NCBI RefSeq assembly: GCF_000025305.1
Contig: NC_013740.1
Coordinates: forward strand, 2,170,001-2,234,000
Direction of reading: 5' to 3'
Length of the DNA stretch: 64,000 nucleotides
Source of the DNA: Acidaminococcus fermentans DSM 20731
GTDB lineage: Bacteria; Bacillota; Negativicutes; Acidaminococcales; Acidaminococcaceae
The first letter of the stretch is position 1. Each line of letters begins with the position of its first letter. A program made the position numbers and the translations under genes. Positions 42,932-58,360 of the stretch are shown here, one piece after another. The notes beneath the pieces were generated by a model. That model did not search any database, was not told where the DNA came from, and saw nothing but the letters and a program-made list of their open reading frames with translations.

Positions 42932-44038
42932 TTATACCAGCTGTCTTCTGGCCCTTTCTTCTTCTTTGCCAGGGTCTTCTTCCGGATACCACATGACTTT
43001 CACCAGATTGACCCGGCATTCTTCTCCTTCGGCGAAGGTGATCCGATGAGGAGTCTGAACTTTTAGGAGCTGATCTCCCATACGGACCAGATACTGGGTG
43101 GAATCAGTGAGGAAAATCCGGCTTTCGATCTTTCCCCTGAAGCCTTTTGTCCGATTCAGGTCTATTTCATTGGGTCGGGTAGCAATGACCATCTCCCGGT
43201 CCACATTCTCCGGGATGGGCAAATCCAGGGTCTGTTCCGAATCCCCCCGTACATATACTTTATCGTCCTTTAAATAAACGTGTAAAAATGTGGATTGTCC
43301 CAGGAAACTATGGACAAACCGGTTGCACGGCCGATTATACAGATTCTCCGGAGTATCGATCTGGACGATATTCCCCATGTCGCAGACCATCATCCGGTCG
43401 GAAATGGCCATGGCTTCGCTCTGGTCATGGGTCACGAAAATAATGGTGAACCCGAATTTCTGCTGGAGGTTCTTGATTTCAAAACGCATGCTTTCCCGGA
43501 GTTTGGGATCCAGGTTGGACAAAGGTTCATCCAGCAGCATGACCTTGGGATTGGTAACGATGGCCCGGGCCAGGGCAATCCGCTGCTGCTGTCCTCCGGA
43601 AAGATCACTGGGATAGACTTCTTCCATCCCATCCAGACTAGTGTGATGCAGGGCCTCTTTCACCCGCTGCACGATCTCCGCCTTGGGCAGTTTTCGGATC
43701 TGCAGGGGAAAAGCCACATTTTCAAAGATATTCATATGTGGCCAGACAGCGAAGGCCTGGAACACCATTCCCAAGCCCCGTTCCTCGGGAGGCACATAGA
43801 TATTTTTATCTTTTACCGAAACAGGACGGCCGCACAGTTCGATTTCACCTTCCGACAGGTCTTCAAATCCGGCAATCATCCGCAGCGTGGTGCTTTTACC
43901 GCAGCCTGAAGGCCCCAGGAAGGAAAAGCACTCCCCTTCCCGGACCGTCAGATTGAAATCATTGACAGCGGTTATTGTGCCCAGTTTTTTGGTGGTAAAA
44001 CGTTTGGTCACGTGCCGCAGCACAATCTGGTCAGTCAC
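42932..44038 (-). CDS. ABC transporter ATP-binding protein (second ATPase of the iron-type importer)
   Basis: A 368-residue ATPase of the FbpC/PotA type. GPSGCGKST (Walker A), SGGQQQR (signature), LLDEPLSNLD (Walker B) and the switch THDQSEAM are all intact. The C-terminal TOBE-like region (about 240-350) is typical of this group. It is the last gene of a four-gene operon and differs from the other ATPase at 45753, so the importer may use a heterodimer. It starts three bases after the permease stop. Confidence 0.88.
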   Translation of the reverse strand: MTDQIVLRHVTKRFTTKKLGTITAVNDFNLTVREGECFSFLGPSGCGKSTTLRMIAGFEDLSEGEIELCGRPVSVKDKNIYVPPEERGLGMVFQAFAVWPHMNIFENVAFPLQIRKLPKAEIVQRVKEALHHTSLDGMEEVYPSDLSGGQQQRIALARAIVTNPKVMLLDEPLSNLDPKLRESMRFEIKNLQQKFGFTIIFVTHDQSEAMAISDRMMVCDMGNIVQIDTPENLYNRPCNRFVHSFLGQSTFLHVYLKDDKVYVRGDSEQTLDLPIPENVDREMVIATRPNEIDLNRTKGFRGKIESRIFLTDSTQYLVRMGDQLLKVQTPHRITFAEGEECRVNLVKVMWYPEEDPGKEEERARRQLV

Positions 44039-44041
44039 GTT

Positions 44042-45769
44042 TTACACCCCCTTCTTATCTTTGGTAATCTGCGTAACGATGAAATTGCAGATAATGATGA
44101 TGCAGATGGCTACAGCAGCCAATGCCGATGCCTGAGGAATCTGCCCGCTATCCCGCAGGGCGAAGATCTGTACCCCCAGGGTCCGGGTATAGGGCCCATA
44201 CAGTAAGATGGAAGTGGTCAGTTCCCGCATGGAAGGCAGGAAAATCAGGAAGAACCCGGCCACCATAGCCGGACGGATCAACGGCAGGGTAATGTCTTTC
44301 AAAGATTCCGTATGAGAGGCCCCGCAGGCACGGGCCGCTTCTTCCAGAGATGGATGGACCTGCTGCAGGGAAGCAGAGGCACTCTTCATAGAAAAACTCA
44401 GATACCGGGCCATATATGCCACCAAAATGATCCAAATGGTGTTATACAGGCTGATGCCCAACTGCCCGGACCAGGAGAGGATGACCCCAATGGCCAGCAC
44501 GGTCCCGGGGATGGAATAGGGCAGTACGGACAGCATTTCCAGGATTTCCTTTCCTTTGGGTTTGATCTTGATGACCACATAAGCAATCATCACACCCAGG
44601 AACATACAGAGAATCCCGGCACTGATGGACAGGAACAGGGAGTTCTGGATGGCATCCATGGTCTGCTTGCTGGTAATGATATTGTGGAAATTATCCAGGG
44701 TGAAATTCGCTGGAATCAGCGGCAGTCCATAAGCTTTTACCAAGCCTTCCAGGAAAATCATGATAAGAGGAACCAGCACGATGAGTACCAATGTCAGCAC
44801 AGCCAACAGCAGAAGAGGATATTTTGCTCCCCGGAGCTTGATCAGAGTGGGCCGCATGCTCTTACCCTTGATGATATCGTAAGACCCGCTGGAAAGGACC
44901 ACTTTCTGCAGGATCAGAGCCATAGTGACCACAAAGACCAGAAGGATGGAAAGGGCCGCCCCCTGCCGAATCCCCTCAAAACTGCCTCCTGCCCGATCAA
45001 TATAAGCATAGATTACTGTAGGCAGGGTGTAAATCTGTTTGGAAAATCCCAGAATAGCTGGCACCCCAAAATGGGCGAGAGAAGAAATCAGGATCAGCAG
45101 GGCACCTGCGGAAATAGCCGGAGTCACCAGAGGGATGGTAATCTTCCGGATGACCGTTCCTTGGCTGGCTCCGGCGATCCGAGCACTTTCTTCCAGAGTA
45201 GGGTCCATCCGTTCCAGAGCACTGACCACCTGCATGAACACAAAGGGGAAATAATACGATACCTCAACGAAAATGATGCCACCCAGCGAATTGATGTTAA
45301 ATGGCGGCGTTGTCAGATGGAAGGTATTCATCAGCCAGGTGTTCACATAGCCGCCTCGTCCTGAAAGGAGCATATCCCAGGCCATGGCCCCAAAAAAAGG
45401 TGGGAACATATAGGGAATCATAAACAGGGCCCGCATCAGGTTCTTGCAGGGGATATCGCTGCGTCCCAGCAGCCAGGCATAGAAGAGTCCGATGATCGTT
45501 CCCACCACTGTCACACTGAGACCGATGATGACCGTATGGGTCATGGCACTGATATTGTCCTGGCTGAAAACAACAGTCTTGAACATCTCGATATCCAGAC
45601 GGCCTTCGTAAAAGAAGGCATTGTAGACAATCATGAAAATAGGGATAAAGACGATGACAAACAGCAGCACAAAGCTGACCAGAGTCATGGCCTTGTCCAA
45701 GCTGAAAGTTTTTCCATCCAGGGCCGCCAGATCAGACGTGCCCTGACGAGTTCTACGCAGATTCATCAT
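44042..45769 (-). CDS. ABC transporter permease with two fused transmembrane domains
   Basis: A 575-residue FbpB-type permease made of two homologous six-helix halves. Each carries a coupling (EAA) loop: EESARIAGASQGTVIRKITI in the first half and EEAARACGASHTESLKDITL in the second. It forms the pore of the importer without a separate partner. The ATG at 45769 (or 45766) follows AAGGAGG, and the gene overlaps the upstream ATPase gene by 17 bases. The substrate is set by the lipoprotein at 46902. Confidence 0.88.
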   Translation of the reverse strand: MMNLRRTRQGTSDLAALDGKTFSLDKAMTLVSFVLLFVIVFIPIFMIVYNAFFYEGRLDIEMFKTVVFSQDNISAMTHTVIIGLSVTVVGTIIGLFYAWLLGRSDIPCKNLMRALFMIPYMFPPFFGAMAWDMLLSGRGGYVNTWLMNTFHLTTPPFNINSLGGIIFVEVSYYFPFVFMQVVSALERMDPTLEESARIAGASQGTVIRKITIPLVTPAISAGALLILISSLAHFGVPAILGFSKQIYTLPTVIYAYIDRAGGSFEGIRQGAALSILLVFVVTMALILQKVVLSSGSYDIIKGKSMRPTLIKLRGAKYPLLLLAVLTLVLIVLVPLIMIFLEGLVKAYGLPLIPANFTLDNFHNIITSKQTMDAIQNSLFLSISAGILCMFLGVMIAYVVIKIKPKGKEILEMLSVLPYSIPGTVLAIGVILSWSGQLGISLYNTIWIILVAYMARYLSFSMKSASASLQQVHPSLEEAARACGASHTESLKDITLPLIRPAMVAGFFLIFLPSMRELTTSILLYGPYTRTLGVQIFALRDSGQIPQASALAAVAICIIIICNFIVTQITKDKKGV

Positions 45770-46847
45770 GATCCTCCTTTCTGGCTTCATAATACCGGGG
45801 TTGAAGGAAACGCAGGCCCACTTCCTGGCCTTCCTCTGCCTTATTGTTCTGCATCACATCCAGTGCATTGACCTGCATCCGGATTTCCCGATTTCCCAGC
45901 TGGATGAAATATACGTACTCACTGCCCAGGAACACGCTTCGGGTAACTTTTCCACGGACAGGGGAACTGTCATCAAAAATCATATCATTGAGACGCACTC
46001 CCATTTCCATGGGTCTTCCACTTGCAAAGATTTCCTGGGGGCATTCATCATAGAGGAACTTTTCTCCGGCTACCAGATAGGTATGTCCATTTTCCCGTAC
46101 CAGGGGGAAGAAGTTCGAGACTCCGATAAATTCAAAGACAAACCGATTAGCCGGTCTCAAGATGATGTCCTCATCCTCGCCGATCTGGCACAGATTCCCA
46201 TCCCGGTCCATAATGGCCATCCGGTCGCAAAGCTGAAGAGCCGCTTCCTGGTCATGGGTAATATAGAGGATGGTGGTCCCGATATCGTGCTGAATCAGAC
46301 GGATTTCCGTCAGCATTTCTTCCCGCAGCTTGGCATCCAGGTTGGTAATGGGTTCATCCATGACGATGACTTCATCACTGCTCACCAGGGCACGGGCAAT
46401 GGCCACCCGCTGCTGCTGCCCACCGGAAAGCTGGCTGGGCAAATGTTCCTCATACCCCAGCATCCGCACCTGCTCCAGGGCATGGTGGGCTCTTTCTTTC
46501 ATTTCTTGCTTGGGTATTCTCATTTTCTTCATGGGATACAGTACGTTTTCCAGCACGGTCATATGGGGCCACACCGCATAATCCTGGAACACCACCCCGA
46601 TATGACGGTGTTCCGGAGAGACGTCGATGCCTTTTTCCGCATCGAACAGGCAGCGGTCTCCTACATAAATGGATCCTGTCTCCGGTTTGATGAATCCCAA
46701 CAGACAGCGGACCAAAGTTGTCTTCCCGCAGCCAGAAGGGCCGACCAGACACATGATCTGGCTTTCTTCCACTGTTAGAGAAAGATCCTTGAAAATACAT
46801 TTTTTCCCATAGTGGAAGGTAATATGATTGAACCGAACATCGGCCAT
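45753..46847 (-). CDS. ABC transporter ATP-binding protein (first ATPase)
   Basis: A 364-residue ATPase with GPSGCGKTT (Walker A), SGGQQQR (signature), VMDEPITNLD (Walker B), THDQEAAL (switch) and a C-terminal TOBE-like region. It is only distantly related to the ATPase at 42932. It lies between the binding-protein gene and the permease gene, overlapping the latter. One of the two ATPases may be a duplicate, or they may form an asymmetric pair. Confidence 0.88.
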   Translation of the reverse strand: MADVRFNHITFHYGKKCIFKDLSLTVEESQIMCLVGPSGCGKTTLVRCLLGFIKPETGSIYVGDRCLFDAEKGIDVSPEHRHIGVVFQDYAVWPHMTVLENVLYPMKKMRIPKQEMKERAHHALEQVRMLGYEEHLPSQLSGGQQQRVAIARALVSSDEVIVMDEPITNLDAKLREEMLTEIRLIQHDIGTTILYITHDQEAALQLCDRMAIMDRDGNLCQIGEDEDIILRPANRFVFEFIGVSNFFPLVRENGHTYLVAGEKFLYDECPQEIFASGRPMEMGVRLNDMIFDDSSPVRGKVTRSVFLGSEYVYFIQLGNREIRMQVNALDVMQNNKAEEGQEVGLRFLQPRYYEARKEDHDESA

Positions 46848-46865
46848 ACTTTCACCTCCTGAAAA

Positions 46866-46896
46866 AACGGACGGCAGCCTGTCCTGCCGTCCGTTC
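46866..46896 (-). terminator. Intercistronic hairpin after the binding-protein gene
   Basis: AACGGACGGCAG (46866-46877) pairs with CTGCCGTCCGTT (46884-46895) and is followed by six T on the minus strand. It would attenuate transcription into the ATPase and permease genes, leaving more binding protein than membrane parts. Confidence 0.7.
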
Positions 46897-46901
46897 CGAC
46901 G

Positions 46902-47939
46902 TTATTTTTTCTTGAAGATGGCATCGAATTGATCCAGCACGTTCTTGGCATTGGCTGCCAGTTTCTCCAGGTCCACCTTCATGGCATTCTTGGCGATTTC
47001 CTCAATGGTCACACCCTTCTGTTTCACATCTTTGCGGACAGAAAGCATATTGTTTTGTACCAGGACTTCCTGTCCTTCTTTGGAAAGGATGAAGTCATAA
47101 AGTTTCTTGGCATTGGCTTCGTTTTTGGCTCCCTTTACCAGAGCGATGGGACTGTAAATGGAGATGATGTCCTGTTTCGGATAGACAAATTCGATGGTGG
47201 ACCCTTTGCTCTTCAGGTTTTCCGTGACATAATCCAGGCACATCCCTACTTTATAGGCACCGGCTGCAATCTGGTTGTGGGTTGCAGTAGTCCCGGACTG
47301 GAGTTCCGTGCCGTTTTCCTTCAGTTTTTCAAAATAGGCCTTTCCGTACTTGGAATTGGAAATCAGGGCCCCTACGGCGTATTTGGTGGTTCCCGCCGTA
47401 CCGGGATCCGTCATGACAATCTGGCCTTTCCATTTGGGATCCAAAAGATCATCCCAGGTCTTGGGCGCTTCTTCTTTGGAAACCTTCTGAGGATTGTAGG
47501 CAATCCCCATATTCATCATCCGGGCACCGGTATAATAGCCTTCCTTATCAATAAATACCGGATCGATGGCCTTGGCTTCCGGAGAACTGTATTTCTGAAG
47601 GATGCCCATTTTCTTAAAACCGATGTAGTCGGCCGGATCCCCTACCCAGATTACATCTGCCGCTACCTGGCCGGATTTCGCTTCCGTGGCGATTTTCGTA
47701 ATAACTTTCCCGGTTCCGGCGAAGTAGTAATCCAGTTTGATGTCCGGGTATTTCTTTTCAAACGCTTTCTTCACAGCATTCAACTGGTCTTCCTGCATAG
47801 AGGAATACAGCATCACCGTATTCCCTGCGGATTTCTTGTCCTGTTTGGAACCGGGAATCGCCCCGCCCCCACCGCAGGCACTGATTCCTGCTGCCAGCAC
47901 GCACAGCATCCCTACAGACAGCCACTTCTTCAGATTCAT
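46902..47939 (-). CDS. ABC transporter substrate-binding lipoprotein (iron/FbpA-type)
   Basis: A 345-residue exported lipoprotein; the signal ends AAGISAC with the lipid-bearing cysteine at C22. The mature part is a class-II periplasmic binding protein like FbpA, with VMLYSSMQEDQLNAVKKAFE, AADVIWVGDPADY and WKGQIVMTDPGT. Relatives bind ferric iron, but also phosphonates, thiamine or sulfonates. The tyrosine pair typical of ferric-binding proteins is not clearly seen, so the cargo may be organic. It is the first gene of the four-gene importer operon. Confidence 0.8.
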   Translation of the reverse strand: MNLKKWLSVGMLCVLAAGISACGGGGAIPGSKQDKKSAGNTVMLYSSMQEDQLNAVKKAFEKKYPDIKLDYYFAGTGKVITKIATEAKSGQVAADVIWVGDPADYIGFKKMGILQKYSSPEAKAIDPVFIDKEGYYTGARMMNMGIAYNPQKVSKEEAPKTWDDLLDPKWKGQIVMTDPGTAGTTKYAVGALISNSKYGKAYFEKLKENGTELQSGTTATHNQIAAGAYKVGMCLDYVTENLKSKGSTIEFVYPKQDIISIYSPIALVKGAKNEANAKKLYDFILSKEGQEVLVQNNMLSVRKDVKQKGVTIEEIAKNAMKVDLEKLAANAKNVLDQFDAIFKKK

Positions 47940-48148
47940 GGTAATTCAGCCTCCCTTATTGGAATCTCTTTGCCGGGCAAAGTACTTTATGTGCTAATTT
48001 TACCATATTTTTACTGAATATTTACATGTTTTTTACAATTCAAATAAAATCATCCAATAGTGTATAGTATTTAACAACCACAAAACTACATTTCTCACTT
48101 CTCAAAAAGCCACCCTCCAACAGTCCTTTTGCATAATAACTTAAGCAT
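47940..48148. other. AT-rich leader region of the ABC operon
   Basis: About 210 bases without a gene. It should hold the minus-strand promoter; several TAAAAT and TATACT-like boxes occur but none is decisive. AACTACATT at 48084-48092 matches a half-site of the IclR-region repeat at 51084. Confidence 0.4.
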
Positions 48149-48208
48149 AAAAAAGGCTGTGCATGAATCCCGGAGATTCTCTGTCCGTATCCTTGCACAG
48201 CCTTTTTT
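48149..48208 (-). terminator. Terminator of the NRAMP-like/ureohydrolase operon
   Basis: AAAAAAGGCTGTGCA (48149-48163) pairs with TGCACAGCCTTTTTT (48194-48208), a 15-bp stem with a 30-base loop and T-tract in both directions. Confidence 0.8.
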
Positions 48209-48214
48209 ATTCCT

Positions 48215-48688
48215 TTACTTTTTCTTCATCCGGAAGCAGAAGGTGCAGTGATGATCTTTGTACATGATATGGTCATGTACACATTCCAGGTCTTCATTGT
48301 ACCCTTTGCAGATGGCGGGGTCGATATTTTCGCAGTAAATGCGGCCGTATTTTTCTTCCCCCGCATCCATCCAGGTCTTGGCGAATACACAGCGGTCAAA
48401 ATCCTGGTTGATTTCGTCTTTGCCATATTCTGTGTCATACCCGAACAGTTCACTGCGTTCCATGTCATAGTTGGGCAGATAGGCATCCAGATCATTTTTC
48501 TGGCCCCGTTGAGCAGCCCGGCGGGCAATATCTTTACCCCGGGCTATTCCCCAGTCGATAACGCTTTGTTTCAGGATTTCCAGGCCTTTTTCCCCAAATT
48601 CTTTTTCCAGATTCTTTGCCAGGATGGAAAAAAAACGGGCAAACAGAACGAACATGGAAACCGGTTCATCCATTTTTTGCGGTTTCAA
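48215..48688 (-). CDS. L-2-amino-thiazoline-4-carboxylate hydrolase-family protein
   Basis: A 157-residue helical protein that I assign to the ATC hydrolase (AtcB-like) family. Its C-terminal third is cysteine- and histidine-rich: RCVFAKTW, then YCENIDPAICKGYNEDLECV and HCTFCF. Characterised relatives open the ring of aminothiazoline carboxylate to N-carbamoylcysteine. Many family members are of unknown activity. It is the last gene of the operon with the ureohydrolase and the NRAMP-like carrier. A carbamoylase-type amidase, the partner enzyme class in that pathway, is encoded just across the IclR gene. Confidence 0.65.
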   Translation of the reverse strand: MKPQKMDEPVSMFVLFARFFSILAKNLEKEFGEKGLEILKQSVIDWGIARGKDIARRAAQRGQKNDLDAYLPNYDMERSELFGYDTEYGKDEINQDFDRCVFAKTWMDAGEEKYGRIYCENIDPAICKGYNEDLECVHDHIMYKDHHCTFCFRMKKK

Positions 48689-48762
48689 GTTTTACACTCC
48701 CCTTTTTTATGTCCCAGGGTCTGCTGCAGATACAGCAGGACCCTCAACCAGAACAATCGTAT

Positions 48763-49746
48763 TTATTTGCTTTCTTTGATATGCTGAGCCAGGCCGTTCA
48801 GATAGTACAGGAATGCCCAGTTAACCACATGGGCCGCCGTCTGCAGGGTGAACACTTCCGGATAGGTTTCCACAAAGTCAATGCCTTTCGCCCCTGCCAG
48901 TCCTGCTTCATGGAGCATCATCAGCAGTTCATAAGAAGTCAGACCACCCATGTCCTGGGGTGCCTGAGGCATGTTGGCTGCATCCAGACTGTCTGCACAT
49001 ACGGTAATGTAGATATATTCCGTATCCTTGCTGACTACTTCCAGGGCTTTGGAAATGGAAGCCTTCCAGCCATCTTCATGGACATCGATGGCCCGGATGA
49101 CCGTTGCGCCATATTTTACGGCATTGTTGTATTCTTCCCGATGGTTTCTGGGTCCACGGATCCCGATATGAGCGATCTTGGTGGGATCCATGTTGGGATC
49201 ATTGTAGACCCGATAGAAAGGAGAACACCGGGACAATTCATCATCACCGAAATGGGAGTAGTTGTCCAGATGGGCGTCAAAGTGGAGAACGCCTACTTTC
49301 TTCGGATACCGTTTGGCGATTTCACTGATGATGGGATAGGCAATGCCATGGTCCCCGCCAATGGTAATGGGGATAATTTTGGCATCAGCCAGTTTGCCAA
49401 TCCGCTCCCGGATGGATTTGAAGGTAAAGTCATAGTTGCCATTCTGGGTGGCAATATCCCCGGAATCAGCCACATTGAGGTAATCAAAGCAATCCAGGTT
49501 GTAGTCAGGCAGGAAGCCGGTATACCGGATGGACGCAGAGCGGACTGCTTTGGGGCCTTCCGTAGTGGAAGAATACCCGCCGATGGTACAGCCTCCTTCC
49601 CAGGGTACCCCAACCACTGCGGCATCGATTTTTTTCAGATCGTCATCATTTTCAATGACGGACAGGTTCAACCAGGAAGGTACTCCGCTGTAAATCATAT
49701 TGGGCAGGAAATTGGGATCATAAATCGTAGGTTTACTTTCTCTCAT
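48763..49746 (-). CDS. Ureohydrolase (agmatinase/arginase) family protein with altered metal site
   Basis: A 327-residue ureohydrolase. GGDHG (H133) and DAHLD (157-161) supply four of the usual six ligands of the binuclear manganese site. The third motif, normally SxDxDxxDP, reads TVCADSLDA: C250 stands where the first bridging aspartate should be, D252 is kept, and the proline is A256. The enzyme may use another metal or have changed function. The family hydrolyses guanidino groups of agmatine, guanidinobutyrate and similar. It sits between the NRAMP-like carrier and the ATC-hydrolase-like gene in one operon. Confidence 0.75.
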   Translation of the reverse strand: MRESKPTIYDPNFLPNMIYSGVPSWLNLSVIENDDDLKKIDAAVVGVPWEGGCTIGGYSSTTEGPKAVRSASIRYTGFLPDYNLDCFDYLNVADSGDIATQNGNYDFTFKSIRERIGKLADAKIIPITIGGDHGIAYPIISEIAKRYPKKVGVLHFDAHLDNYSHFGDDELSRCSPFYRVYNDPNMDPTKIAHIGIRGPRNHREEYNNAVKYGATVIRAIDVHEDGWKASISKALEVVSKDTEYIYITVCADSLDAANMPQAPQDMGGLTSYELLMMLHEAGLAGAKGIDFVETYPEVFTLQTAAHVVNWAFLYYLNGLAQHIKESK

Positions 49747-49791
49747 TTCAAAACATCTCCTTATAAATCTACCAAAGAGGCCAATGCCTTT

Positions 49792-51021
49792 TTAGAACAA
49801 ACTGATGATGCTGCTGACTCCCAAGATCAGGGAGATGATAAAGATGGCAGTTCCCAGAACGTTTTCCAGCGTACTGTTGGCAAATTCTCCCATAATTCTC
49901 CGGCTGGCGGTCAGATAAATGGTCACACCCACCACAACGGGCAATACCACACCATTGACCATCTGGGCAGCCATAATCAGGGCAATGGGGTTAAATCCCA
50001 TCCCGGCAACGATGATGCCGGTAATAAGAACCAGGAAGTTGGTCACGGTGTACCGTTTGTCACTGCGGTTGGTTTTCCAGCCAAACAGACCGGCCAGCAC
50101 ATAGGAAACACCCATGGGCGTGCAAACAGCGCTGGACACCCCGGCGGCCACCAGGCCGATGGCCATGAAGGGTTTGGCAAAAGTCCCCAAAGTCGGTTCC
50201 AACTGGATGGACATGTCCATGGCATTCCGGACCGGCATTCCCAGCATGACCGTTGCCGCCGTAACCATGATGGCTCCGGTTACGATGCCCCCGATGATCA
50301 TGGGGATATTGGTCCCGAACCGGCAGAGAGGCAGGTCATCAGTAGAATGCCAGGTTCTCTTGGCGGAGGCCGCATGGAGGAACATGTTGTAAGGCACTAC
50401 CGTGGTCCCGATCAGGGACAGACAGGTCATCAGTCCGCCCTTGGGAATGTTGGGGACACAGCCAGCCAGCAGTTTTCCCAGGTCCGGCTTCACCACGAAC
50501 ATGGTGACCAGGAATACCACAGCCATGATGATGACGCAGGCTCCCAACAATTTTTCCAGGTATTTCAGGGCATCTCCGGCGAAGCTCAGGAGCAGGAGGA
50601 TGCAAAAGCCCCAAACCGGAGCAATGATCCGGGTGGAAATCCCGGTCAGGGCGCTGATTCCAATGGCCGTCCCTGTCAGGTCCCCGCTCATGTAAGCGAA
50701 CCCGCCAATAGTGATGGCCACGGCCACCAGACCGCACAGCAGATTCCGCAGTACAGGACGGTTTTCAAAATCCTTGACCAGGTTCTGAGCCAGCCCCATC
50801 TGGGTCACAATACCCAGGCGGGCTGCCATGCCCTGCATGACAATTACTGCAATAACTGAAAAGATGATGCACCAGAACAGCTGGAACCCATAATCAGCCC
50901 CGGCTTTCGTGGAACTGGTAACCGTCCCCGGTCCGATAAAGGAGCCGACGATCAGGAAGCCAGGCCCCAATGCCCCCAATTTTTCCTTTAGGGTAAACTG
51001 CTTTTCTTTTTTGTCCGCCAT
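49792..51021 (-). CDS. NRAMP-related transporter lacking the canonical metal-binding motifs
   Basis: A 409-residue LeuT-fold protein with about 11 helices, clearly NRAMP-like (LGPGFLIVGSFIGPGTVTSS near the start). In metal-carrying NRAMPs the first helix has DPGN and the sixth MPH. Here they are GPGT (30-33) and VPYN (209-212), so three of the key metal-binding residues are gone. It is therefore unlikely to carry Mn or Fe. Its operon with a ureohydrolase and an ATC-hydrolase-like gene suggests an organic, perhaps guanidino or ureido, substrate; magnesium is an alternative seen in some NRAMP relatives. Confidence 0.75.
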   Translation of the reverse strand: MADKKEKQFTLKEKLGALGPGFLIVGSFIGPGTVTSSTKAGADYGFQLFWCIIFSVIAVIVMQGMAARLGIVTQMGLAQNLVKDFENRPVLRNLLCGLVAVAITIGGFAYMSGDLTGTAIGISALTGISTRIIAPVWGFCILLLLSFAGDALKYLEKLLGACVIIMAVVFLVTMFVVKPDLGKLLAGCVPNIPKGGLMTCLSLIGTTVVPYNMFLHAASAKRTWHSTDDLPLCRFGTNIPMIIGGIVTGAIMVTAATVMLGMPVRNAMDMSIQLEPTLGTFAKPFMAIGLVAAGVSSAVCTPMGVSYVLAGLFGWKTNRSDKRYTVTNFLVLITGIIVAGMGFNPIALIMAAQMVNGVVLPVVVGVTIYLTASRRIMGEFANSTLENVLGTAIFIISLILGVSSIISLF

Positions 51022-51083
51022 ACTTCTCTCCCCCTCATTGGTAAAATCCTACGCCGCATTACCCTAGTTACTCGCTCTTGTTT

Positions 51084-51118
51084 AACTACATTGTCGTTTT
51101 TTATTTCGCATTGTAGTT
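51084..51118. promoter_or_regulatory. IclR-type operator candidate
   Basis: AACTACA (51084-51090) and TGTAGTT (51112-51118) are inverted arms 21 bases apart, in the AT-rich region between the divergent NRAMP-like gene and IclR gene. Confidence 0.55.
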
Positions 51119-51213
51119 TTGTGTATTTTTATACCACCATTATTTCTGTTTGTCAATCAAAATCTTTTGTGCTACTCTAATAAAGAAAAAATCGCTGCCA
51201 AGGGAGGTCGTTT

Positions 51214-51993
51214 ATGGAAAAAAAGTTACAAAAGCCCATTCAGTCCATCCAGCGGGCTGTACAGATTCTGGACTGTTTCACGCCTACGGATCCCAGTCTG
51301 CCCCTGTCAGCCATCAGCGAAAAAACGGGACTGAACATCAATACCACCCGGGGTCTGGTCAACACGTTGGTAGAAAGCCAGCTGCTGCTGCGGGACAGGG
51401 AAACCGGTTATTATAAACTGGGATATTACTTCGTTACCAAAGCTTCCATGATCCACCAGGATATCGACCGGTATGTGGAACTGTTCAAACCTCTGGTCGA
51501 TGCCATTGCAGAAAAATATCACTTCTCCGCCAGTCTCCAGATGGTGTACCAGAATCAGATTTTCAGTGTCTATTGTACCTATCCCACCAAGCAGGCCTAT
51601 TACATCGTTATGAGTGAATACACAGATCTTCCCCTCCATGCCACCAGTTCCGGAAAACTGCTTCTGTTGGATGAAGTGACCCATGGAAGGAAAGAAATGT
51701 TGGGTCAATTGGATTTCAAGGCTTTCACACCTTCCAGTATCCGTTCCAGAGAACAGTTGGAATCCCAGCTGAAAGCCATCCAGAAAAACGGCTATTCCAC
51801 GGAAATCGAAGAATTTGTCAATGATGTGGGCAGCCTGGCAGTGCCCCTCTATGATGAAAAAGGCCGGCTGCTGCTGACTATCAGTGCCACCTTCTTTGTA
51901 AAATCCCTTCCCCAGCTCAAAAACGATCTGCTGAAGGATTTCCAAAAAGCCATTGATACCTGGAAACAGGCCATGAGAAAGGAGATGCCATAA
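51214..51993 (+). CDS. IclR-family transcriptional regulator
   Basis: A 259-residue IclR regulator. The N-terminal winged helix (about 10-75) has SIQRAVQILDCF and LSAISEKTGLNINTTRGLVN. The C-terminal ligand-binding domain has LPLHATSSGKLLLL and the family's late VPLYDEKGRLL stretch. GGGAGG precedes the ATG at 51214. It is divergent from the NRAMP-like operon and its TAA overlaps the ATG of the amidase gene, so it is co-transcribed with one enzyme and probably controls both units. Confidence 0.88.
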   Translation: MEKKLQKPIQSIQRAVQILDCFTPTDPSLPLSAISEKTGLNINTTRGLVNTLVESQLLLRDRETGYYKLGYYFVTKASMIHQDIDRYVELFKPLVDAIAEKYHFSASLQMVYQNQIFSVYCTYPTKQAYYIVMSEYTDLPLHATSSGKLLLLDEVTHGRKEMLGQLDFKAFTPSSIRSREQLESQLKAIQKNGYSTEIEEFVNDVGSLAVPLYDEKGRLLLTISATFFVKSLPQLKNDLLKDFQKAIDTWKQAMRKEMP

Positions 51994-53216
51994 TGGATAA
52001 CCTGAAAGATATCTGGTCAGCGCTTTTCCAAGCCCTTTCAGCCTTCGGCTATGAAGAAGGCCAGGGTACCACCCGTCTTTCCTGGTCAAACCCTTTCCTG
52101 GAGGCCCAGAAATATCTGCATAGTTACGCAGAAGCTGCCGGACTCCAATGCCAGCGGGACGGCTGGGGTAATCTGCTCATGACTGTACCGGGAGAAACTG
52201 GCCTTCCGCCGGTGTATACCGGTTCCCATCTGGATACCGTTCCCCATGGAGGAAAATATGATGGAGCCCTGGGGATTACGGTCCCTCTGGCCATTGCCGC
52301 AGCCTGGCATCAGGCAGGATTCCGTCCCCGCCGCCCTCTGACCATCATTGCCTTTGCCGAAGAAGAAGGCACCCGATTCGGACCCCCATGCATGGGCAGC
52401 CAAGCTATGGCAGGAAAGCTCCAGGGAAAAGATCCTGGCAGTTTTATCACAGCAGAAGGCCAACCCCTTCCCCAACTGCTCCAGGAAGCCGGACTGGAAG
52501 GGGATCCCTTTGCCCCGCATCTGCTTCCGGGGAAATGTTTTGTGGAAATGCATATTGAGCAGGGCCGTGCCCTGGAAGATGCCAAACTGCCTCTGGGCAT
52601 TGTTTCCGCCATTGTAGGAATCCGGCATTTTATAATCCGGGTCCAGGGCCAGGCCAACCATGCCGGCACTACCGCCATGAAAGACCGGCATGACGCCCTG
52701 GCGGCAGCAGCTGCAGAAATCAGTGAAATCCATCAGTGCGCCCTGACATCCAACAATCAGTATGTAGCCACAGTCGGACATATCCGGGTGTCTCCCGATG
52801 CAGGAAATGTCATTCCAGGAGAAGCAGAGTTCTCTCTGGAAATCCGTGCGGAGGAAGATTCCACTATGGATTGTGTCGTTTCTGCCTACAAGGATTTCTC
52901 ACGAAACCTGGAGAAACAATATGGCGTCCGATTTCTGTGGAATCAGCTGGATCAGATTCCGCCCCTGCCCATGGACCGGAAAATCATGGAACTTTTTCAA
53001 TCGTACGCTCAAAAAGAAAGTGTCCGTTTTCAGATACAACCCAGTTGGGCAGGCCATGATGCCATGATCCTGGGCCACGAACTGCCCACTGCCATGCTGT
53101 TTGTCCCCAGCAAAAACGGCATCAGCCATTCTCCCGAAGAATTCACTTCAGCAGAAGATATTGGACAGGCAGCTTCCGTCCTGGAGAAAGTGCTGACCCA
53201 TCTGACCAGAGAATGA
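51993..53216 (+). CDS. Hydantoinase/carbamoylase-family amidase (M20-type)
   Basis: A 407-residue zinc amidohydrolase of the allantoate amidohydrolase/N-carbamoyl-L-amino-acid hydrolase group. TGSHLDTVPHGGKYDGALG gives the first ligands, FAEEEGTRFG the catalytic glutamates, and EMHIEQG and ANHAGTTAM the dimer-domain residues; PSKNGISHSPEEFT carries the last histidine. It releases ammonia and CO2 from carbamoyl compounds. The start overlaps the IclR stop. Alongside the ATC-hydrolase-like protein it could be an N-carbamoylcysteine amidohydrolase; allantoate or another ureido acid is equally possible. Confidence 0.85.
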   Translation: MDNLKDIWSALFQALSAFGYEEGQGTTRLSWSNPFLEAQKYLHSYAEAAGLQCQRDGWGNLLMTVPGETGLPPVYTGSHLDTVPHGGKYDGALGITVPLAIAAAWHQAGFRPRRPLTIIAFAEEEGTRFGPPCMGSQAMAGKLQGKDPGSFITAEGQPLPQLLQEAGLEGDPFAPHLLPGKCFVEMHIEQGRALEDAKLPLGIVSAIVGIRHFIIRVQGQANHAGTTAMKDRHDALAAAAAEISEIHQCALTSNNQYVATVGHIRVSPDAGNVIPGEAEFSLEIRAEEDSTMDCVVSAYKDFSRNLEKQYGVRFLWNQLDQIPPLPMDRKIMELFQSYAQKESVRFQIQPSWAGHDAMILGHELPTAMLFVPSKNGISHSPEEFTSAEDIGQAASVLEKVLTHLTRE

Positions 53217-53244
53217 GGATGGAGGTTTTTCCAATCATTCCTTG

Positions 53245-53289
53245 AAAAAAGAGCGAGGATACCGTACAAAGGGTATCCTCGCTTTTTGA
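53245..53289. terminator. Bidirectional terminator between amidase and M20D genes
   Basis: GCGAGGATACC (53253-53263) pairs with GGTATCCTCGC (53272-53282), with A and T tracts outside. Confidence 0.9.
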
Positions 53290-53335
53290 ATTGTTTTTTC
53301 TTTTCCTTACATGAGCCCAAGATGCACGCAAAAAA

Positions 53336-54514
53336 TCATTTCTCCTGAAAAGCGTCCCAAACTGTTTGTGCCAGCACCTGCGCTCCAGTGGCAATTCCCT
53401 TTTCATCAAAAACGATGCCGCTGTTATGCAGGGGACGATGAGATTTCTCATCCGCATTGCAGGTCCCTATGCGGAACAGCGCCCCGGGAAGAATTTCCAG
53501 GTAATCCGCAAAATCCTCAGATCCCATGGAGGCTTTCTCCAGTTCTATTACATGGTCTTCGCCCAGTACTTCCTTCCCCGCTTGGGCGATCCGGTCAACT
53601 ACATTGGCATCGTTGATGACAGGGGGATTTCCCTTCTGATACTCCACTTCACAGGTTCCGCCAAATCCTTCGGCAATGGAAGGCAACAGTGTTTCCAAAC
53701 GATTTTGGATCAACGTACGTACAGAGGGATCCAGAGAACGGACCGTCCCTTCCAGCACCACCTTGTCCGGTATCACATTGGGGGCCGTTCCTCCTGTAAT
53801 CTTTCCAATGGTGATAACACCGGAATCCAGCGGCGCTATATTCCGGGATACAATGGTTTGCAGGGCCGTCAGGATGTAGCCCGTAATGCAAATCGGATCT
53901 ATGGATTTATGGGGATGTGCCCCATGACCACCTTTCCCATGGACAGTCACTTTCAAAGAGTCACTGGCGGCCATGGAAGGACCTTTCCGTATGCCAATGG
54001 TACCGCCGGGAATTTCCGGCCAGGTATGGAGTCCGATAATGAATTGTGGATGATATTTTTCAAAAATCCCTGTGTCAATCACGGACTTGGAACCGTTGAG
54101 TTTTTCCTCTGCCGGTTGGAAAATCAGCAGTACTCTGCCAGTAATATCATTTTCAGCCTTTTTCAGCAGTTTTGCCGCATACAGAAGAGCGGTCATATGC
54201 AGGTCATGCCCGCAACAGTGGGCGATACCTGCCTTTTTTGAAGCAAAGGGCAATCCGGATGCTTCCTGGATGGGCAGCGCGTCGATATCCGCCCGCAGCG
54301 CTATGCACTGGGGCTCTTTCCCCTGACCGATGGATGCCACCAAGCCTGTTTTCAAACCAGTATCCAGAATGGGGATTCCCCATTCCTGTAGTTTCCTACG
54401 AATTTTTTCCGTAGTTTCGGTTTCTTCATACCCCAATTCCGGATACTGATGACATTCTCTTCGAAACGCCACTGCTTCCTTGATTTCCGTATCGGTCAAA
54501 ATAAACTTTTTCAT
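53336..54514 (-). CDS. M20D-family amidohydrolase (aminoacyl-hydrolase type)
   Basis: A 392-residue metal hydrolase like IAA-amino-acid and N-acetyl-amino-acid hydrolases. CHQYPELGYEE, ALRADIDALPI, GIAHCCGHDLHM and FQPAEEK give the binuclear metal ligands and catalytic glutamates. The family cleaves N-acyl amino acids or small peptides. The start overlaps the GltS-type gene stop (ATGA), so the carrier and this enzyme are coupled; the enzyme probably releases an amino acid such as glutamate from the imported compound. Confidence 0.85.
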   Translation of the reverse strand: MKKFILTDTEIKEAVAFRRECHQYPELGYEETETTEKIRRKLQEWGIPILDTGLKTGLVASIGQGKEPQCIALRADIDALPIQEASGLPFASKKAGIAHCCGHDLHMTALLYAAKLLKKAENDITGRVLLIFQPAEEKLNGSKSVIDTGIFEKYHPQFIIGLHTWPEIPGGTIGIRKGPSMAASDSLKVTVHGKGGHGAHPHKSIDPICITGYILTALQTIVSRNIAPLDSGVITIGKITGGTAPNVIPDKVVLEGTVRSLDPSVRTLIQNRLETLLPSIAEGFGGTCEVEYQKGNPPVINDANVVDRIAQAGKEVLGEDHVIELEKASMGSEDFADYLEILPGALFRIGTCNADEKSHRPLHNSGIVFDEKGIATGAQVLAQTVWDAFQEK

Positions 54515-55854
54515 GCCGGATCCGCCTTTCCTTTCACCCTAAAGAAGAGTATCCCTGCCAGAATAAATGCCACCAGGGCAGCGGAAACACCCCCTATATA
54601 AAGCATGGGACTGCTCAGGAACAGCATGGGGCCCATGGTGGTATTGGGCAGCTGGTAGAAGGATCCCAGGGTACTGGAACCGGAAATACTCTCACTGGTC
54701 ATGGTATCCCCATCAGGATCCAGGACTTTGATCAGCAGCAGGCCGGTTGCCAAAGTCCCGGTGCATTGCCCATAGATTCCCATAGCTACCTCAAACCAAT
54801 GATCTCCATACCATTTTTTGGAAAGATACACGGAAAAGAAAGCCGTCAATCCGCACAGGATAATGGTAGACACAACAATAGGAACGAAATAGGCTTTTAA
54901 GACGCTGATCCGGATGGTTGCCACCGCCACCACAATCATATATTCCAGTGCCAGCCCGGAAATCCGTTTCATGGAAGGACGGTCAATATACTGTCCCCAT
55001 TTTGTTTTCCCCAGAATAGGTCCTACAATGGCCCCCATCAGAAGGCACATGGTATACAAAGGAATCCGCTTCCAGAAAGGGATAATGGCGATCAGACCAA
55101 TCCGTGTGATATAGGAAATGGCAATGATAACGCCGACAATCATAAACTGAAAAGCAAAAGGATCCAGAGCTGAAGGACTGCACACTGCAGCGGCCATGGA
55201 AGGACGGCTTCCCTTTTCAAGCAATCCGGAAGAATGGGTCAGTTTGTCGATTTCTGCCTGATCTACTTTATGACTGGTCCATCCTCTGGAAGCCCCATAG
55301 TTGATCAGGAACATCCCTCCGATAACGGCGGCGAACATCCCAATGGTAGCATAGGTCATGGCAATCCCCATGGCATCGCTGATTCCTTCAGATCCAAAGG
55401 ACGCCCCAATGATTCCAGCAGAACCGTGTCCTCCATAAAAACCGGTGACAGGCAACAGGCCCAGCCACATGGGCAGATCCTGCATAAACGGAAGCAATGC
55501 CACAATTATGGCCAACCCCACAAGGATCTGCATCATATGCATGGTCCCGGCAATAACTGTTGTGGATAAGATGTCTCTTCCCAGTTTGCCCACAGAATTT
55601 CCTAAAAATGAAGTGGCAAAGATGAAGCAGAAAGCAAAATTAATCCATTGCCCGATTCCTTTGCTGTAATGCAGACAAATGGGCGATACTTCCCCCAACA
55701 CCTGGGGCCCCAACAGCAGACCCAGGATTCCGGCAATCAGAGATGCCGGAATAAAATACCGTCTGAAAAAAGCAATCTTCACCCGCAGTGCAAACCCCAG
55801 ACACAGCAGAAAGCTGACTGTTGCAATATCAATGGCAATATCTGTCAAGTTCAT
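54511..55854 (-). CDS. GltS-type (ESS family) sodium:glutamate symporter-like carrier
   Basis: A 447-residue membrane protein with about 10-12 hydrophobic segments. It resembles sodium:glutamate symporters, with the first signature TGFYGGHGSAGIIGASF and the second YGQCTGTLATGLLLIKVLD at the equivalent positions of the inverted halves. The second half lacks a clear GGHG, so it may be a divergent member with another acidic or acylated amino-acid cargo. It is the middle gene of a creatininase/carrier/M20D unit; the gap to the creatininase gene is 37 bp. Confidence 0.75.
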   Translation of the reverse strand: MNLTDIAIDIATVSFLLCLGFALRVKIAFFRRYFIPASLIAGILGLLLGPQVLGEVSPICLHYSKGIGQWINFAFCFIFATSFLGNSVGKLGRDILSTTVIAGTMHMMQILVGLAIIVALLPFMQDLPMWLGLLPVTGFYGGHGSAGIIGASFGSEGISDAMGIAMTYATIGMFAAVIGGMFLINYGASRGWTSHKVDQAEIDKLTHSSGLLEKGSRPSMAAAVCSPSALDPFAFQFMIVGVIIAISYITRIGLIAIIPFWKRIPLYTMCLLMGAIVGPILGKTKWGQYIDRPSMKRISGLALEYMIVVAVATIRISVLKAYFVPIVVSTIILCGLTAFFSVYLSKKWYGDHWFEVAMGIYGQCTGTLATGLLLIKVLDPDGDTMTSESISGSSTLGSFYQLPNTTMGPMLFLSSPMLYIGGVSAALVAFILAGILFFRVKGKADPA

Positions 55855-55891
55855 TTTTCACTCCCCCTCCCGCCCAAACGGAGACGTTAGC

Positions 55892-56623
55892 TTACTTGTA
55901 GTAGGCCTTGATAAACTTCAAAATCCTTGCCAGACAGGCCTCCACGATTTTTTCGCCCTTTTCTCTGGTAGCAACCGTTGCATCCCCTACCGTTCCGTTG
56001 TAAGTTTTATCCGTAAATTTTCCCAACGTGATAAAATCACTGAATTCAGAGCTGGTATGAGGATCTACACAGGTTTCTCCAGCTTCATCCACCAATTCAG
56101 GGAACAGATACAACATTACAGATGTTCCGCATTCACTGGCATGGCCATTGCACATGTACCCTTCATACTGGCAGATTCCTTTGTTGTGGACAGTAGCAAA
56201 ACGCCACCAGTCAACTTGAGCCATTTTAAAATCATACTGTTCCATGTATTTTTTGGACAAATAATTGACTGTATCCACATTCCCTGCGTGGCCAGTGATA
56301 AATAAAATTTTCTTGGCTCCATCTTTCAGTACTTTCCCCAGGATATAATCCAGATAGTCTTCCAGAATCTTCCGAGGCATGGCAAATGTGCAGGGAAAAG
56401 AAGCCAGCGCAGAAGATTCTCCGGCTTCAATAGTCGGTGCAATCAAAGCATCCGTCTCCTCGGCAACCAGTTCAGCAATCCGTTTGGCCACCAGCAGATC
56501 CGTTCCCATGGGCAGATGAGGCCCGTAGACTTCACAAGCGCCTGTAGGAATGATAACCAGAGGATCCTTTTCCATTCTTTCCAAATATTGTTTCCCTGGC
56601 ATTTTTCTGATATAATTTTGCAT
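55892..56623 (-). CDS. Creatininase-family amidohydrolase with altered metal motif
   Basis: A 243-residue creatininase-like protein. The family motif ExHGPHLPxxTD reads EVYGPHLPMGTD, so E31, H36 and D42 are kept but the metal-binding histidine is Y33. The second region TGHAGN supplies H112 and the HASECGTS stretch a glutamate. Members hydrolyse cyclic amides (creatinine) or formamides (MftE and ArfB relatives). The first gene of the operon with the GltS-type carrier and the M20D enzyme, it probably handles a cyclic or acyl amino acid derivative. It is divergent from the LysR gene at 56787. Confidence 0.75.
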   Translation of the reverse strand: MQNYIRKMPGKQYLERMEKDPLVIIPTGACEVYGPHLPMGTDLLVAKRIAELVAEETDALIAPTIEAGESSALASFPCTFAMPRKILEDYLDYILGKVLKDGAKKILFITGHAGNVDTVNYLSKKYMEQYDFKMAQVDWWRFATVHNKGICQYEGYMCNGHASECGTSVMLYLFPELVDEAGETCVDPHTSSEFSDFITLGKFTDKTYNGTVGDATVATREKGEKIVEACLARILKFIKAYYK

Positions 56624-56786
56624 AATCTTTCAGTCCTTTCTTGCTTTCTGTTTCATTTTTCTCTTTTGTTTGTCGTCTTATTATTATTTTTGTATATTAT
56701 TTATCATAGAGTCTTTTGAACAACAACTAAATTCTATTTGTTGCATGTATTATTGCGTTTTATGCATCAGTAGAAAGGATTCTGTC

Positions 56787-57674
56787 ATGGATATTGCAAA
56801 CATCCACAGTTTTGTAGTTCTGGCTGAACTGCTCAGTTTCGCCAAAACGGCAGAAAAAGAACATATTTCCCAGTCCACACTCAGCCGTCGGATCCAGTCC
56901 CTGGAAAAAGGACTGAATGTCCAACTGTTCCAACGGGATACCCGCAATATAAAATTGACGGAAGCAGGAAAAGAATTCTACTTCCAAGCCAACAAATTGT
57001 TGGAGCAGTACCACCTGGCCATCAGTTTGACCAAAAAAGCAGTAGGCGGATATTCCCGAAAACTCCGGATCGGTATTGGTTACTATGAGCATTTTTTCCT
57101 TATGCCGTTTATTGGGCAGTTTTCTGCCAGCCACCCAAACATCAAAATCAATCTGTATCAATTTGTCTATGAAACACTCCTGGAATATTTTATCCGGGGA
57201 AATCTGGACATCATTCTGACCAGCGACCAATTCCTTTCCTCGATTTCCGAAAACGCCTACAAGAAGCAACTGCTTTGGCAGGACAGCTGGAGTTTGATTC
57301 TTTCCCGGGACAACCCTTTGGCTGCATATCCTTTTATAGACCGAAAACAATTGCGGGACCAGACCATCATCACCATGTACAACGGGAGCAGCAAAATGAT
57401 CCGGAACATCTATCGGAATCAGGATTTTACCGAGCCATTCCGTACCGTAATCCAGGTCAATTCCTTTGCTGCCAAAATCGCCCTGGTAGATGCCAATATG
57501 GGGATTGGTTTTGTTCCCTCATTTATAAAAACGGAATCCTACAAAAACGTTCTCCTAAAAAAGATCGTTCCTGCCTATAATCCTCGCAAATTTTATGTTT
57601 TATGCAATTCCTACAACTACGACCAGGCTGTATCAGACTTTTTCAGGCGGTGTCAGGAACACTGGCAAAAATAG
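56787..57674 (+). CDS. LysR-family transcriptional regulator
   Basis: A 295-residue LysR regulator: MDIANIHSFVVLAELLSFAK then TAEKEHISQSTLSRRIQSLE in the DNA-binding domain, and an effector domain from about residue 88. The ATG at 56787 follows AGAAAGGA; the longer frame from 56670 begins in the AT-rich intergenic sequence and lacks a site. It is divergent from the creatininase/GltS/M20D operon and probably regulates it. The base composition is more AT-rich than in the LysR genes at the left of the window. Confidence 0.85.
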   Translation: MDIANIHSFVVLAELLSFAKTAEKEHISQSTLSRRIQSLEKGLNVQLFQRDTRNIKLTEAGKEFYFQANKLLEQYHLAISLTKKAVGGYSRKLRIGIGYYEHFFLMPFIGQFSASHPNIKINLYQFVYETLLEYFIRGNLDIILTSDQFLSSISENAYKKQLLWQDSWSLILSRDNPLAAYPFIDRKQLRDQTIITMYNGSSKMIRNIYRNQDFTEPFRTVIQVNSFAAKIALVDANMGIGFVPSFIKTESYKNVLLKKIVPAYNPRKFYVLCNSYNYDQAVSDFFRRCQEHWQK

Positions 57675-57686
57675 ACAAAATAAAGC

Positions 57687-57722
57687 ACAAAAAAGCACTG
57701 CGGCGTACGCAGTGCTTTTTTA
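57687..57722. terminator. Bidirectional terminator between LysR and GntR genes
   Basis: AAAAAGCACTGCG (57690-57702) pairs with CGCAGTGCTTTTT (57708-57720), followed by further T. Confidence 0.9.
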
Positions 57723-57730
57723 GTAATTGA

Positions 57731-58360
57731 TTATTTTCCCAAACTCCGCAGAGCTGTTTCTCGGGATCCTTTTAAATGGAACAGCATGGCATCTCCTGCC
57801 TTATCCCTTTCTCCCATAAAAATCAAATCAATGATCTTCTGATGTTCCTTGGCTGCTTCCTTGTGCCGTTCCCAGATATCACTCCCGGACAGGACCCGGA
57901 TTCTCATATGCTGATCAAAAATATGAGCCAGCATATTGCGAAAGTAAAGATTGGAACATCCTTGTGCCAGAAGTCGGTGGAACCGGTCATCCAGTAAAGC
58001 GAACTGCTCCGGGTCCGGTGCAGACTCTATTAGTTCCTCAGATTTATCCCTTATCTCATGCAGTTTCTTTAAATCCAGATACTTCAGATCCTTTCGGATA
58101 ATGAAAGGTTCCAAAAGCATCCTGGCTTCAAAACTTTGGTTGATTTCATTGATGGTCAATGGTCTGACCATCACCCCTTTTTTGGGGAGAACCGTAACCA
58201 GCCCCTCCTGTTCCAGCCGCGTCAGAGCTTCCCGGATAGGTGTTCTGCTGACCTGCAGTTCTTCCATCAGAGCAGTTTCATTCAAAAAGCCATTGCTTTC
58301 ATACTGGCATCGTAAGATTTTGTTTTTGATTGCATAATAGGCCTTGTCCCGCAAACTCAT
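57731..58360 (-). CDS. GntR-family regulator (FadR/FCD subfamily)
   Basis: A 209-residue regulator. The winged helix is MSLRDKAYYAIKNKILRCQY with LMEELQVSRTPIREALTRLE and GLVTVLPKKGVMV. The all-helical FCD domain follows, with the metal/ligand histidines in DDRFHRLL and further on in HQK and FHLKGS. Several upstream in-frame starts exist; 58360 is chosen because the family pattern begins there, with GGAG close by. It is divergent from the TRAP/enolase-superfamily operon and is almost certainly its regulator, releasing DNA on binding the imported acid. Confidence 0.8.
   Translation of the reverse strand: MSLRDKAYYAIKNKILRCQYESNGFLNETALMEELQVSRTPIREALTRLEQEGLVTVLPKKGVMVRPLTINEINQSFEARMLLEPFIIRKDLKYLDLKKLHEIRDKSEELIESAPDPEQFALLDDRFHRLLAQGCSNLYFRNMLAHIFDQHMRIRVLSGSDIWERHKEAAKEHQKIIDLIFMGERDKAGDAMLFHLKGSRETALRSLGK

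Follow-up and report, generated by a model that had tools for sequence, protein, structure and literature searches.

The closest described relatives of the carrier studied here belong to the Nramp family PF01566, and published work is cited below for the parts of each paper that were available to us. Cellier 2022 and 2023 (PMC9606685, PMC10606218) describe within this family an 'orphan' outgroup without the Mn and H+ features, which is mimicked in silico by the substitutions A131Y, G135N, A228T, M-to-V, H231Y, D42G and N45T (PMC10606218). In the accessible text of a 2026 preprint on BfraNramp (PMC12873925), the Nramp-related groups besides the NRMT-like and YcsG/MntG groups are called 'entirely uncharacterised'.

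For cousins of the carrier, the literature divides into reports of Mn import and reports of 5-oxoproline uptake. Overexpression of Bacillus subtilis YcsG, encoded in a nitrogen operon, raised cell Mn (PMC10448178), and loss of Acinetobacter baumannii MumT, encoded in a urea-metabolism operon, lowered it (PMC5050338); both are distant relatives of the carrier. Corynebacterium glutamicum PxpT, also a PF01566 member, is needed for growth on 5-oxoproline, and its authors note in the available part of the paper that metal transport by PxpT could not be excluded (PMC13274462). Annotation pipelines call such proteins divalent metal transporters, and the carrier described here passes the broader NCBIfam model NF037982 (75 vs cut-off 50).

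Layout of the locus

The window, by which we mean the whole stretch of 64,000 nucleotides analysed, comes from the genome of the gut bacterium Acidaminococcus fermentans, a single contig of 2,329,769 bases. The features of the carrier locus are as follows:

49792..51021, minus strand: NRAMP-like carrier, 409 aa (open reading frame, Pfam, alignment and AlphaFold2 model)
48763..49746, minus strand: Cys-type ureohydrolase (PF00491), 327 aa (Pfam, 190 bits)
48215..48688, minus strand: ATC_hydrolase-family protein (PF14196), 157 aa (95 bits, gathering score 28.1)
51214..51993, plus strand: divergent IclR-family regulator (Pfam)
51993..53216, plus strand: M20 hydantoinase/carbamoylase-family amidase (TIGR01879, 321 bits, cut-off 204)
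51128..51156, minus strand: putative sigma-70-like promoter of the carrier operon, TTGACA-17-TATAAA (match to the consensus only)
51085..51117, minus strand: imperfect inverted repeat ACTACAATG...CAATGTAGT shortly after the -10 box, a candidate IclR operator

Carrier, ureohydrolase and ATC-family genes follow one another in this order on the minus strand, separated by 45 and 74 bases, and the start of the amidase gene overlaps the end of the IclR gene. An earlier note on this DNA had named a ureohydrolase, an ATC-hydrolase-like protein, an IclR regulator and a carbamoylase-type amidase as neighbours, and the Pfam and NCBIfam scores bear out all four. The putative promoter and the inverted repeat lie between the two divergent units, and the repeat is kept in three of four aligned Acidaminococcus sequences. 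Control of the carrier operon by a guanidine riboswitch was considered and rejected because no match was found in positions 44000-58000 of the window (E-values up to 1) or, at gathering scores, in the eight closely related loci described below.

Two other neighbours were considered and set aside. The ABC system at 42932-47939 lies on the same strand, and its binding protein has a BLAST match in only one of the eight loci (L037, 99%), so it is not taken as one unit with the carrier. The creatininase-family gene at 55892-56623 was rejected as a part of the pathway, scoring 110 against an NCBIfam cut-off of 235 and having no BLAST match in the eight loci.

Beside the carrier locus, an M20 amidohydrolase, a GltS-like permease (no Pfam match) and the creatininase-family protein form one minus-strand run (53336-56623). 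A hairpin at 48127-48231, lying after the ATC-family gene and before the gene of the downstream ABC binding protein, is probably a terminator; its matches are weak and only to plant and animal miRNA models.

The carrier lacks the canonical metal site

Pfam Nramp (PF01566) matches the carrier at 277 bits (gathering score 29.8), and the protein scores below the NCBIfam cut-offs for MntH (181 vs 430) and TIGR01197 (115 vs 272.5). TM1 reads GPGT at residues 30-33, where metal NRAMPs have DPGN, and TM6 reads TTVVPYN at residues 206-212, where they have A-x-x-M-P-H, which agrees with the replacement of DPGN and MPH by GPGT and VPYN claimed in the earlier note. With G30, T33, T206, V209 and Y211 at its positions, the canonical DxxN, A/CxxM and MPH metal site is absent. 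In the alignment, D/N and M/H occupy these TM1 and TM6 positions in 11/11 MntH rows, and D occupies the TM1 position in both NRMT rows.

The nearest carrier from a named species, Acidaminococcus massiliensis, is 96% identical. Because the GPGT/TTVVPYN residues are kept in all ten rows of the carrier's clade, which spans Bacillota and a Spirochaete, the motif loss is not due to chance in one gene, and that explanation is ruled out. Six proteins of the genome match PF01566; DPGN together with MPH is found in none of those that are readable, and the sixth match, which is weak (L006), has neither.

In the AlphaFold2 model of the carrier (pLDDT 88.2), helix breaks fall at residues 29-30 and 208-209, exactly at the two motifs. 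The model aligns with DraNramp (6c3i) at Z 51.2, with 375 residues at 2.0 A, and, after the solved NRAMPs, with the amino-acid carriers AdiC, ApcT and Asc-type at Z 27-31. Model and Pfam match together place the protein in the NRAMP (LeuT-type) fold; the predicted fold says nothing on the substrate.

Position of the carrier within PF01566

The earlier note had proposed a phylogeny against NRAMP and NRMT proteins. In our tree, built without 11 of the 20 MntH_B rows, the weak match L006 and the repeats of the query and L042 rows, the carrier clade falls outside both MntH and NRMT. It groups with other GPGT/VVPYN orphans at a support of 88/75, which is below the 95/80 mark. PxpT-type rows form a separate clade (100/100), and the carrier is not among them.

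The suggestion that this may be a little-described NRAMP branch therefore holds for function and not for sequence: the branch is functionally uncharacterised, and our literature search found no assay of the carrier's clade, but as a sequence group it has already been described in the available parts of Cellier 2022/2023 and of the 2026 preprint. The GPGT/VVPYN signature is already published and what is new here is the gene context; a literature search for Nramp proteins with a ureohydrolase or with a hydantoinase found no report.

One further residue sets the clade apart. Asp114 in TM3 is present in 10/10 clade rows of the multiple alignment, where the other GPG-type rows have Asn (21/21). Asn is found in all four PxpT rows and, four residues after a Tyr, in 10/10 orphan rows, from which the carrier differs. 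The same column holds Glu in 13/13 MntH and NRMT rows, but in pairwise alignments the residue facing Asp114 is Asp for one MntH row and Glu for one NRMT row, and because of this disagreement the exact MntH counterpart of Asp114 is unsure. Judged from sequence, Asp114 could hold a cationic substrate group or a proton. It can also be read as a metal-binding point, because the TM3 Glu of BfraNramp contacts Mn (PMC12873925).

Sister carriers and their neighbours

Haloarchaeal plasmid relatives are 36-42% identical to the carrier over about 93%, and have GPGT in TM1 and T-T-V/I-V-G-Y-N in TM6. In the three loci opened (L085, L086, L088), all plasmid operons, the NRAMP-like carrier gene abuts HyuA/HyuB genes, that is, hydantoinase/caprolactamase-family A and B genes; an Asp/Glu racemase-family gene is present in one. 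A fourth plasmid locus that was opened, from Pseudoalteromonas, is without a hydantoinase-type neighbour, and the Alteromonas-type orphan loci show, by eye, no evident enzyme link.

Within the A. fermentans genome itself, the L004 and L005 carriers lie beside a LamB/YcsF protein and two carboxyltransferase-domain proteins (Pfam CT_C_D and CT_A_B), which we read as PxpA, PxpB and PxpC. A PxpA/PxpB/PxpC-type (5-oxoprolinase) locus of this genome (L098, C1:2076000-2093000) has two tandem PxpT-type carriers. Another stretch (L099, C1:2289000-2305000) encodes a tandem pair of GPGA-type NRAMP-like carriers with TM6 STHAAI..YG, near which open reading frames resemble, by eye, a LacI-type regulator, a DapA-like protein and a glutamine-amidotransferase-like peptidase.

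Elsewhere, the L068 carrier lies beside a PxpB/PxpC-type pair and the L045 carrier beside a D-glutamate cyclase. The L069 carrier (Fournierella) has both a D-glutamate cyclase and a PxpB-type protein beside it (Pfam), and L072, from an Oscillospiraceae MAG, resembles it by eye. The carriers of L069 and L072 show yet another variant of the site: they are of a GPGS type and have an Asp in TM6 (VPD). Taken together, an organic-nitrogen neighbourhood is common, not universal, among GPG-type proteins.

Linkage with a Cys-type ureohydrolase

When 84,980 species genomes were scanned with the clade alignment, 16 loci were returned. In eight of them the carrier is 68-96% identical to that of the window: three from Acidaminococcus and one each from an uncultured Oscillospiraceae, Fournierella, Lachnospiraceae ACC2, Treponema vincentii and a Firmicutes MAG. 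All eight have a divergent IclR gene upstream and, directly downstream of the carrier, a ureohydrolase 69-97% identical to that of the window. The earlier note had asked for a count of neighbouring ureohydrolases and named absence of conserved linkage as its refutation; with linkage in 8/8 close homologues, that refutation failed. The ATC-family gene is found in four of the eight loci and the M20 carbamoylase in four; the neighbour lists of these loci, and those of the LIV-side loci below, come from BLAST with the proteins of the window and of L058, by which diverged homologues can be missed. Loci whose carrier is 32-40% identical have the ureohydrolase in 0/8 cases, two of them (L047, L052) lying on contigs under 8 kb.

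Among 61 related genomes, the five that have the carrier (at least 84% identity) are also the five that have the ureohydrolase (at least 71%). Within the genus, both genes are present in 5/9 genomes and neither in 4/9 (Fisher p 0.008, uncorrected for shared descent). Searches with the ureohydrolase in 100 genomes of the family of Treponema, 344 genomes of the order of the Lachnospiraceae genome and 394 genomes of the order of Fournierella returned the starting genome only, so the module is rare and patchy, and the linkage counts rest on few lineages (six genera for the NRAMP type). Viral contigs scanned for the ureohydrolase gave no match. Among plasmids the search gave 75 records, all below 60% identity; one of these loci was opened and used as an outgroup.

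The ureohydrolase keeps GGDH and DAHxD, and its SxDxD motif reads T-x-C-x-D. With ligand residues that we assign, as an assumption, from arginase, the kept metal-ligand positions are His133, Asp157, His159, Asp161 and Asp252, and the bridging Asp is replaced by Cys250. This Cys is found in 10/10 aligned rows, and C[AS]D in 23/23 in-family rows of the ureohydrolase tree; of the outgroup rows, two of three have SFD and the third is without a call. The Cys-type lineage comprises the window gene (48763-49746), L037-L044, L057-L059, L090-L097 and L108-L110. The model of the protein is of moderate confidence (pLDDT 73), and its fold matches guanidinase (9fek, Foldseek TMq 0.81), metformin hydrolase and guanidinopropionase. 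The protein thus has the arginase fold and the PF00491 match of the superfamily and lacks its set of six ligands. With a canonical ligand missing, it may turn out to be something other than a ureohydrolase; a new metal site or chemistry in this lineage is possible from the alignment. A literature search by title found no paper on ureohydrolases with a Cys ligand, and the lineage poses a second, separate question.

Exchange of the carrier with a LIV-type ABC importer

The other loci of the Cys-type ureohydrolase lineage adjoin LIV-type ABC importer genes in 13/14 cases, the exception being L097. The most telling locus is L108, whose genome belongs to a different genus within the family. In it, genes for an M20 carbamoylase and an IclR regulator (50.6%) are divergent from LivJ-H-M-G-F, an ATC hydrolase (72%) and the ureohydrolase (57%). 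This is the layout of the window with the transporter exchanged and the last two genes in reverse order. LIV genes, ATC hydrolase and ureohydrolase also occur together in L109 and L110, which come from a second family of the order; L109 has an IclR gene as well. L058 has in one run carbamoylase, LivJHMG, ureohydrolase, LivF and ATC hydrolase. ATC-family homologues are linked in 4/14 of the LIV-side loci. The two transporters are mutually exclusive: LIV genes are found in 0/8 NRAMP-type loci and the NRAMP gene in 0/14 of the others.

The ureohydrolase tree, from which the copy of genome G002 was left out, unites the nine NRAMP-linked rows in a single clade (100/99). This clade lies inside the LIV-linked rows, and its sister is L108 (100/100), so that the distribution needs no more than one switch from the ABC importer to the carrier.

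The LIV side also bears on the solute. Its LivJ proteins are nearest to amino-acid-binding proteins and score below the cut-offs of urea-ABC models. In the alignment they keep an acidic residue at the position where Atu2422 (3ip5) has one, which presumably contacts the amino group of the ligand. Downstream of the ureohydrolase, L092 and L096 have an N-methyl-amino-acid oxidase (above the NCBIfam cut-off), and L057 and L094 an ornithine-cyclodeaminase/pyrroline-carboxylate-reductase-like protein (below cut-off). The similarities of LivJ and these neighbours together suggest that the solute is an amino acid with an amidino or carbamoyl group.

Discussion

We conclude, with a probability of about 0.7, that the carrier imports a small amino-acid-like organic nitrogen compound and not a metal ion. 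The earlier note had likewise ranked an organic-nitrogen carrier above a manganese importer, and this ranking is supported by the ureohydrolase linkage in 8/8 loci, the exchange with LIV importers and the tree position outside MntH and NRMT.

From the observed sequence, phylogeny, linkage and exchange, and from the predicted fold, we infer the following for transport, its direction, substrate, coupling and regulation. A secondary carrier of the NRAMP (LeuT-type) fold would be a single-gene replacement of LivJHMGF for the same enzyme set. The imported compound would be cut inside the cell by the co-transcribed Cys-type ureohydrolase, and in the loci with an ATC-family gene the PF14196 protein and the M20 carbamoylase may process cyclic or carbamoylated forms; the divergent IclR regulator probably senses the compound. 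Substrate binding is expected in the unwound stretches GPGT and TTVVPY, and Asp114 may hold either a positively charged group or a coupling proton.

A guanidino or ureido label for the substrate is drawn from the neighbouring genes. The class is likely that of amino acids with an N-amidino or N-carbamoyl group, or of their cyclic forms; guanidino acids similar to creatine and guanidinoacetate, and 2-amino-thiazoline-4-carboxylate, are guesses at candidates. For the conversion of the latter we take the gene names to be AtcB and AtcC. The pathway of the ATC family leads from 2-amino-thiazoline-4-carboxylate through carbamoyl-cysteine to cysteine (review PMC10821248, available part); the ureohydrolase has no place in it, so we do not commit to the ATC pathway.

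The main rival, that the carrier supplies Mn2+, Ni2+ or another metal cofactor to the co-transcribed ureohydrolase, is in our view unlikely. It draws on the fact that ureohydrolases are Mn or Ni enzymes, on the position of Asp114 at the MntH/NRMT TM3 Glu in the multiple alignment, and on the Mn phenotypes of YcsG and MumT, which stand against the organic-nitrogen reading, as do four genomes (G456, G457, G462, G463) that carry the carrier gene and no other PF01566 member. Furthermore, giving EcoDMT an NRMT-like site does not abolish its Mn transport (PMC8806188), so loss of DPGN/MPH alone does not exclude metals. However, the carrier has none of the metal-site residues D, N, M and H, its sister carriers have other hydrolases as neighbours, and for the uptake of metals the genome offers a ZnuA/MntC-type protein and two matches to FeoB. 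The main argument is the exchange itself: relatives pair the same enzymes with a LIV amino-acid importer, which a metal supplier would not replace, and a carrier that stands in for such an importer is hard to square with a metal importer. A Mg2+ transporter of the NRMT kind, suggested by EleNRMT being the nearest solved chain by sequence after BfraNramp and by the T of the NRMT TxxA/T motif in TM6, is extremely improbable and was rejected because both motif and tree disagree: NRMT requires DxxG in TM1 and TxxA/T in TM6 (PMC8806188), where the carrier has GxxT and TxxV, and the tree sets the two apart.

Two other readings keep an organic solute. As in its PxpT-type cousins, the solute of the carrier could be 5-oxoproline and the link to the ureohydrolase of secondary importance: PxpT/YcsG is needed for 5-oxoproline use (PMC13274462) and pxp-type genes adjoin several GPG-type branches; but the window operon is without a pxp gene, two PxpT-type genes are already present in this genome at a PxpABC-type locus, and Asp114 stands where all PxpT rows have Asn, which makes this quite unlikely. 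Exchangers such as AdiC occur among the LeuT-fold APC carriers and linkage alone gives no direction, which would allow an exporter or exchanger of a pathway product (an amine, an amino acid or urea, for example); we hold this to be very unlikely, as the carrier occupies the position of an ABC importer that works with a binding protein.

Extending the organic-nitrogen reading to the whole family is more tentative, and we would put the odds somewhat against it. The whole GPG-type part of PF01566 may consist of lactam, ureide and amidino-acid carriers, with the metal NRAMPs as one specialised branch among organic-solute carriers; in the carrier's clade a single change from Asn to Asp in TM3 would have adapted a lactam/ureide site to a substrate whose amidino group is positively charged, and the carrier would then have displaced a five-gene LIV importer before a new, Cys-ligated ureohydrolase class.

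The exchange between NRAMP and ABC types makes the substrate question testable through the soluble binding protein of the ABC version. If confirmed, the organic-nitrogen reading would provide a substrate for a part of PF01566 that the 2026 preprint, in its available text, calls entirely uncharacterised, and would bear on the origin of metal transport from an amino-acid-carrier fold.

Comparison with known systems

Of the described groups, the orphan outgroup is like the carrier in supplying the nearest rows to its clade in the tree and in sequence: the carrier has all but one of the mimicking residues given in the accessible text of PMC10606218, and G30/T33 in TM1, T206/V209/Y211 in TM6 and Y110 in TM3 are all present. 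It differs in TM3, where the carrier clade has Asp and the orphans Asn, and in gene context, as no other orphan locus read is linked to an IclR regulator and a Cys-type ureohydrolase. The haloarchaeal carriers linked to HyuA/HyuB, unlike the carrier, have no ureohydrolase and have Asn at the Asp114 position.

PxpT/YcsG (MntG) is likewise a PF01566 member in an operon with organic-nitrogen hydrolases, and PxpT-type rows share the GPG of TM1; they have GGSVGGY in TM6, in contrast to TTVVPY in the carrier, and their partners are PxpABC-type. Outside the family, the pair of guanidine carrier and guanidinase in comammox Nitrospira (PMC11410670, available part) is alike in gene order, its APC-superfamily permease gene immediately preceding the gene for the ureohydrolase, but is under guanidine-I riboswitch control, for which neither the window stretch nor the eight loci gave a match. 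Finally, the LIV-type (HAAT) importer of L108 and L058 shares with the carrier its operon place, its enzymes and, in L108, its regulator, and probably carries the same solute, although it is unrelated to the carrier, is encoded by five genes and is driven by ATP.
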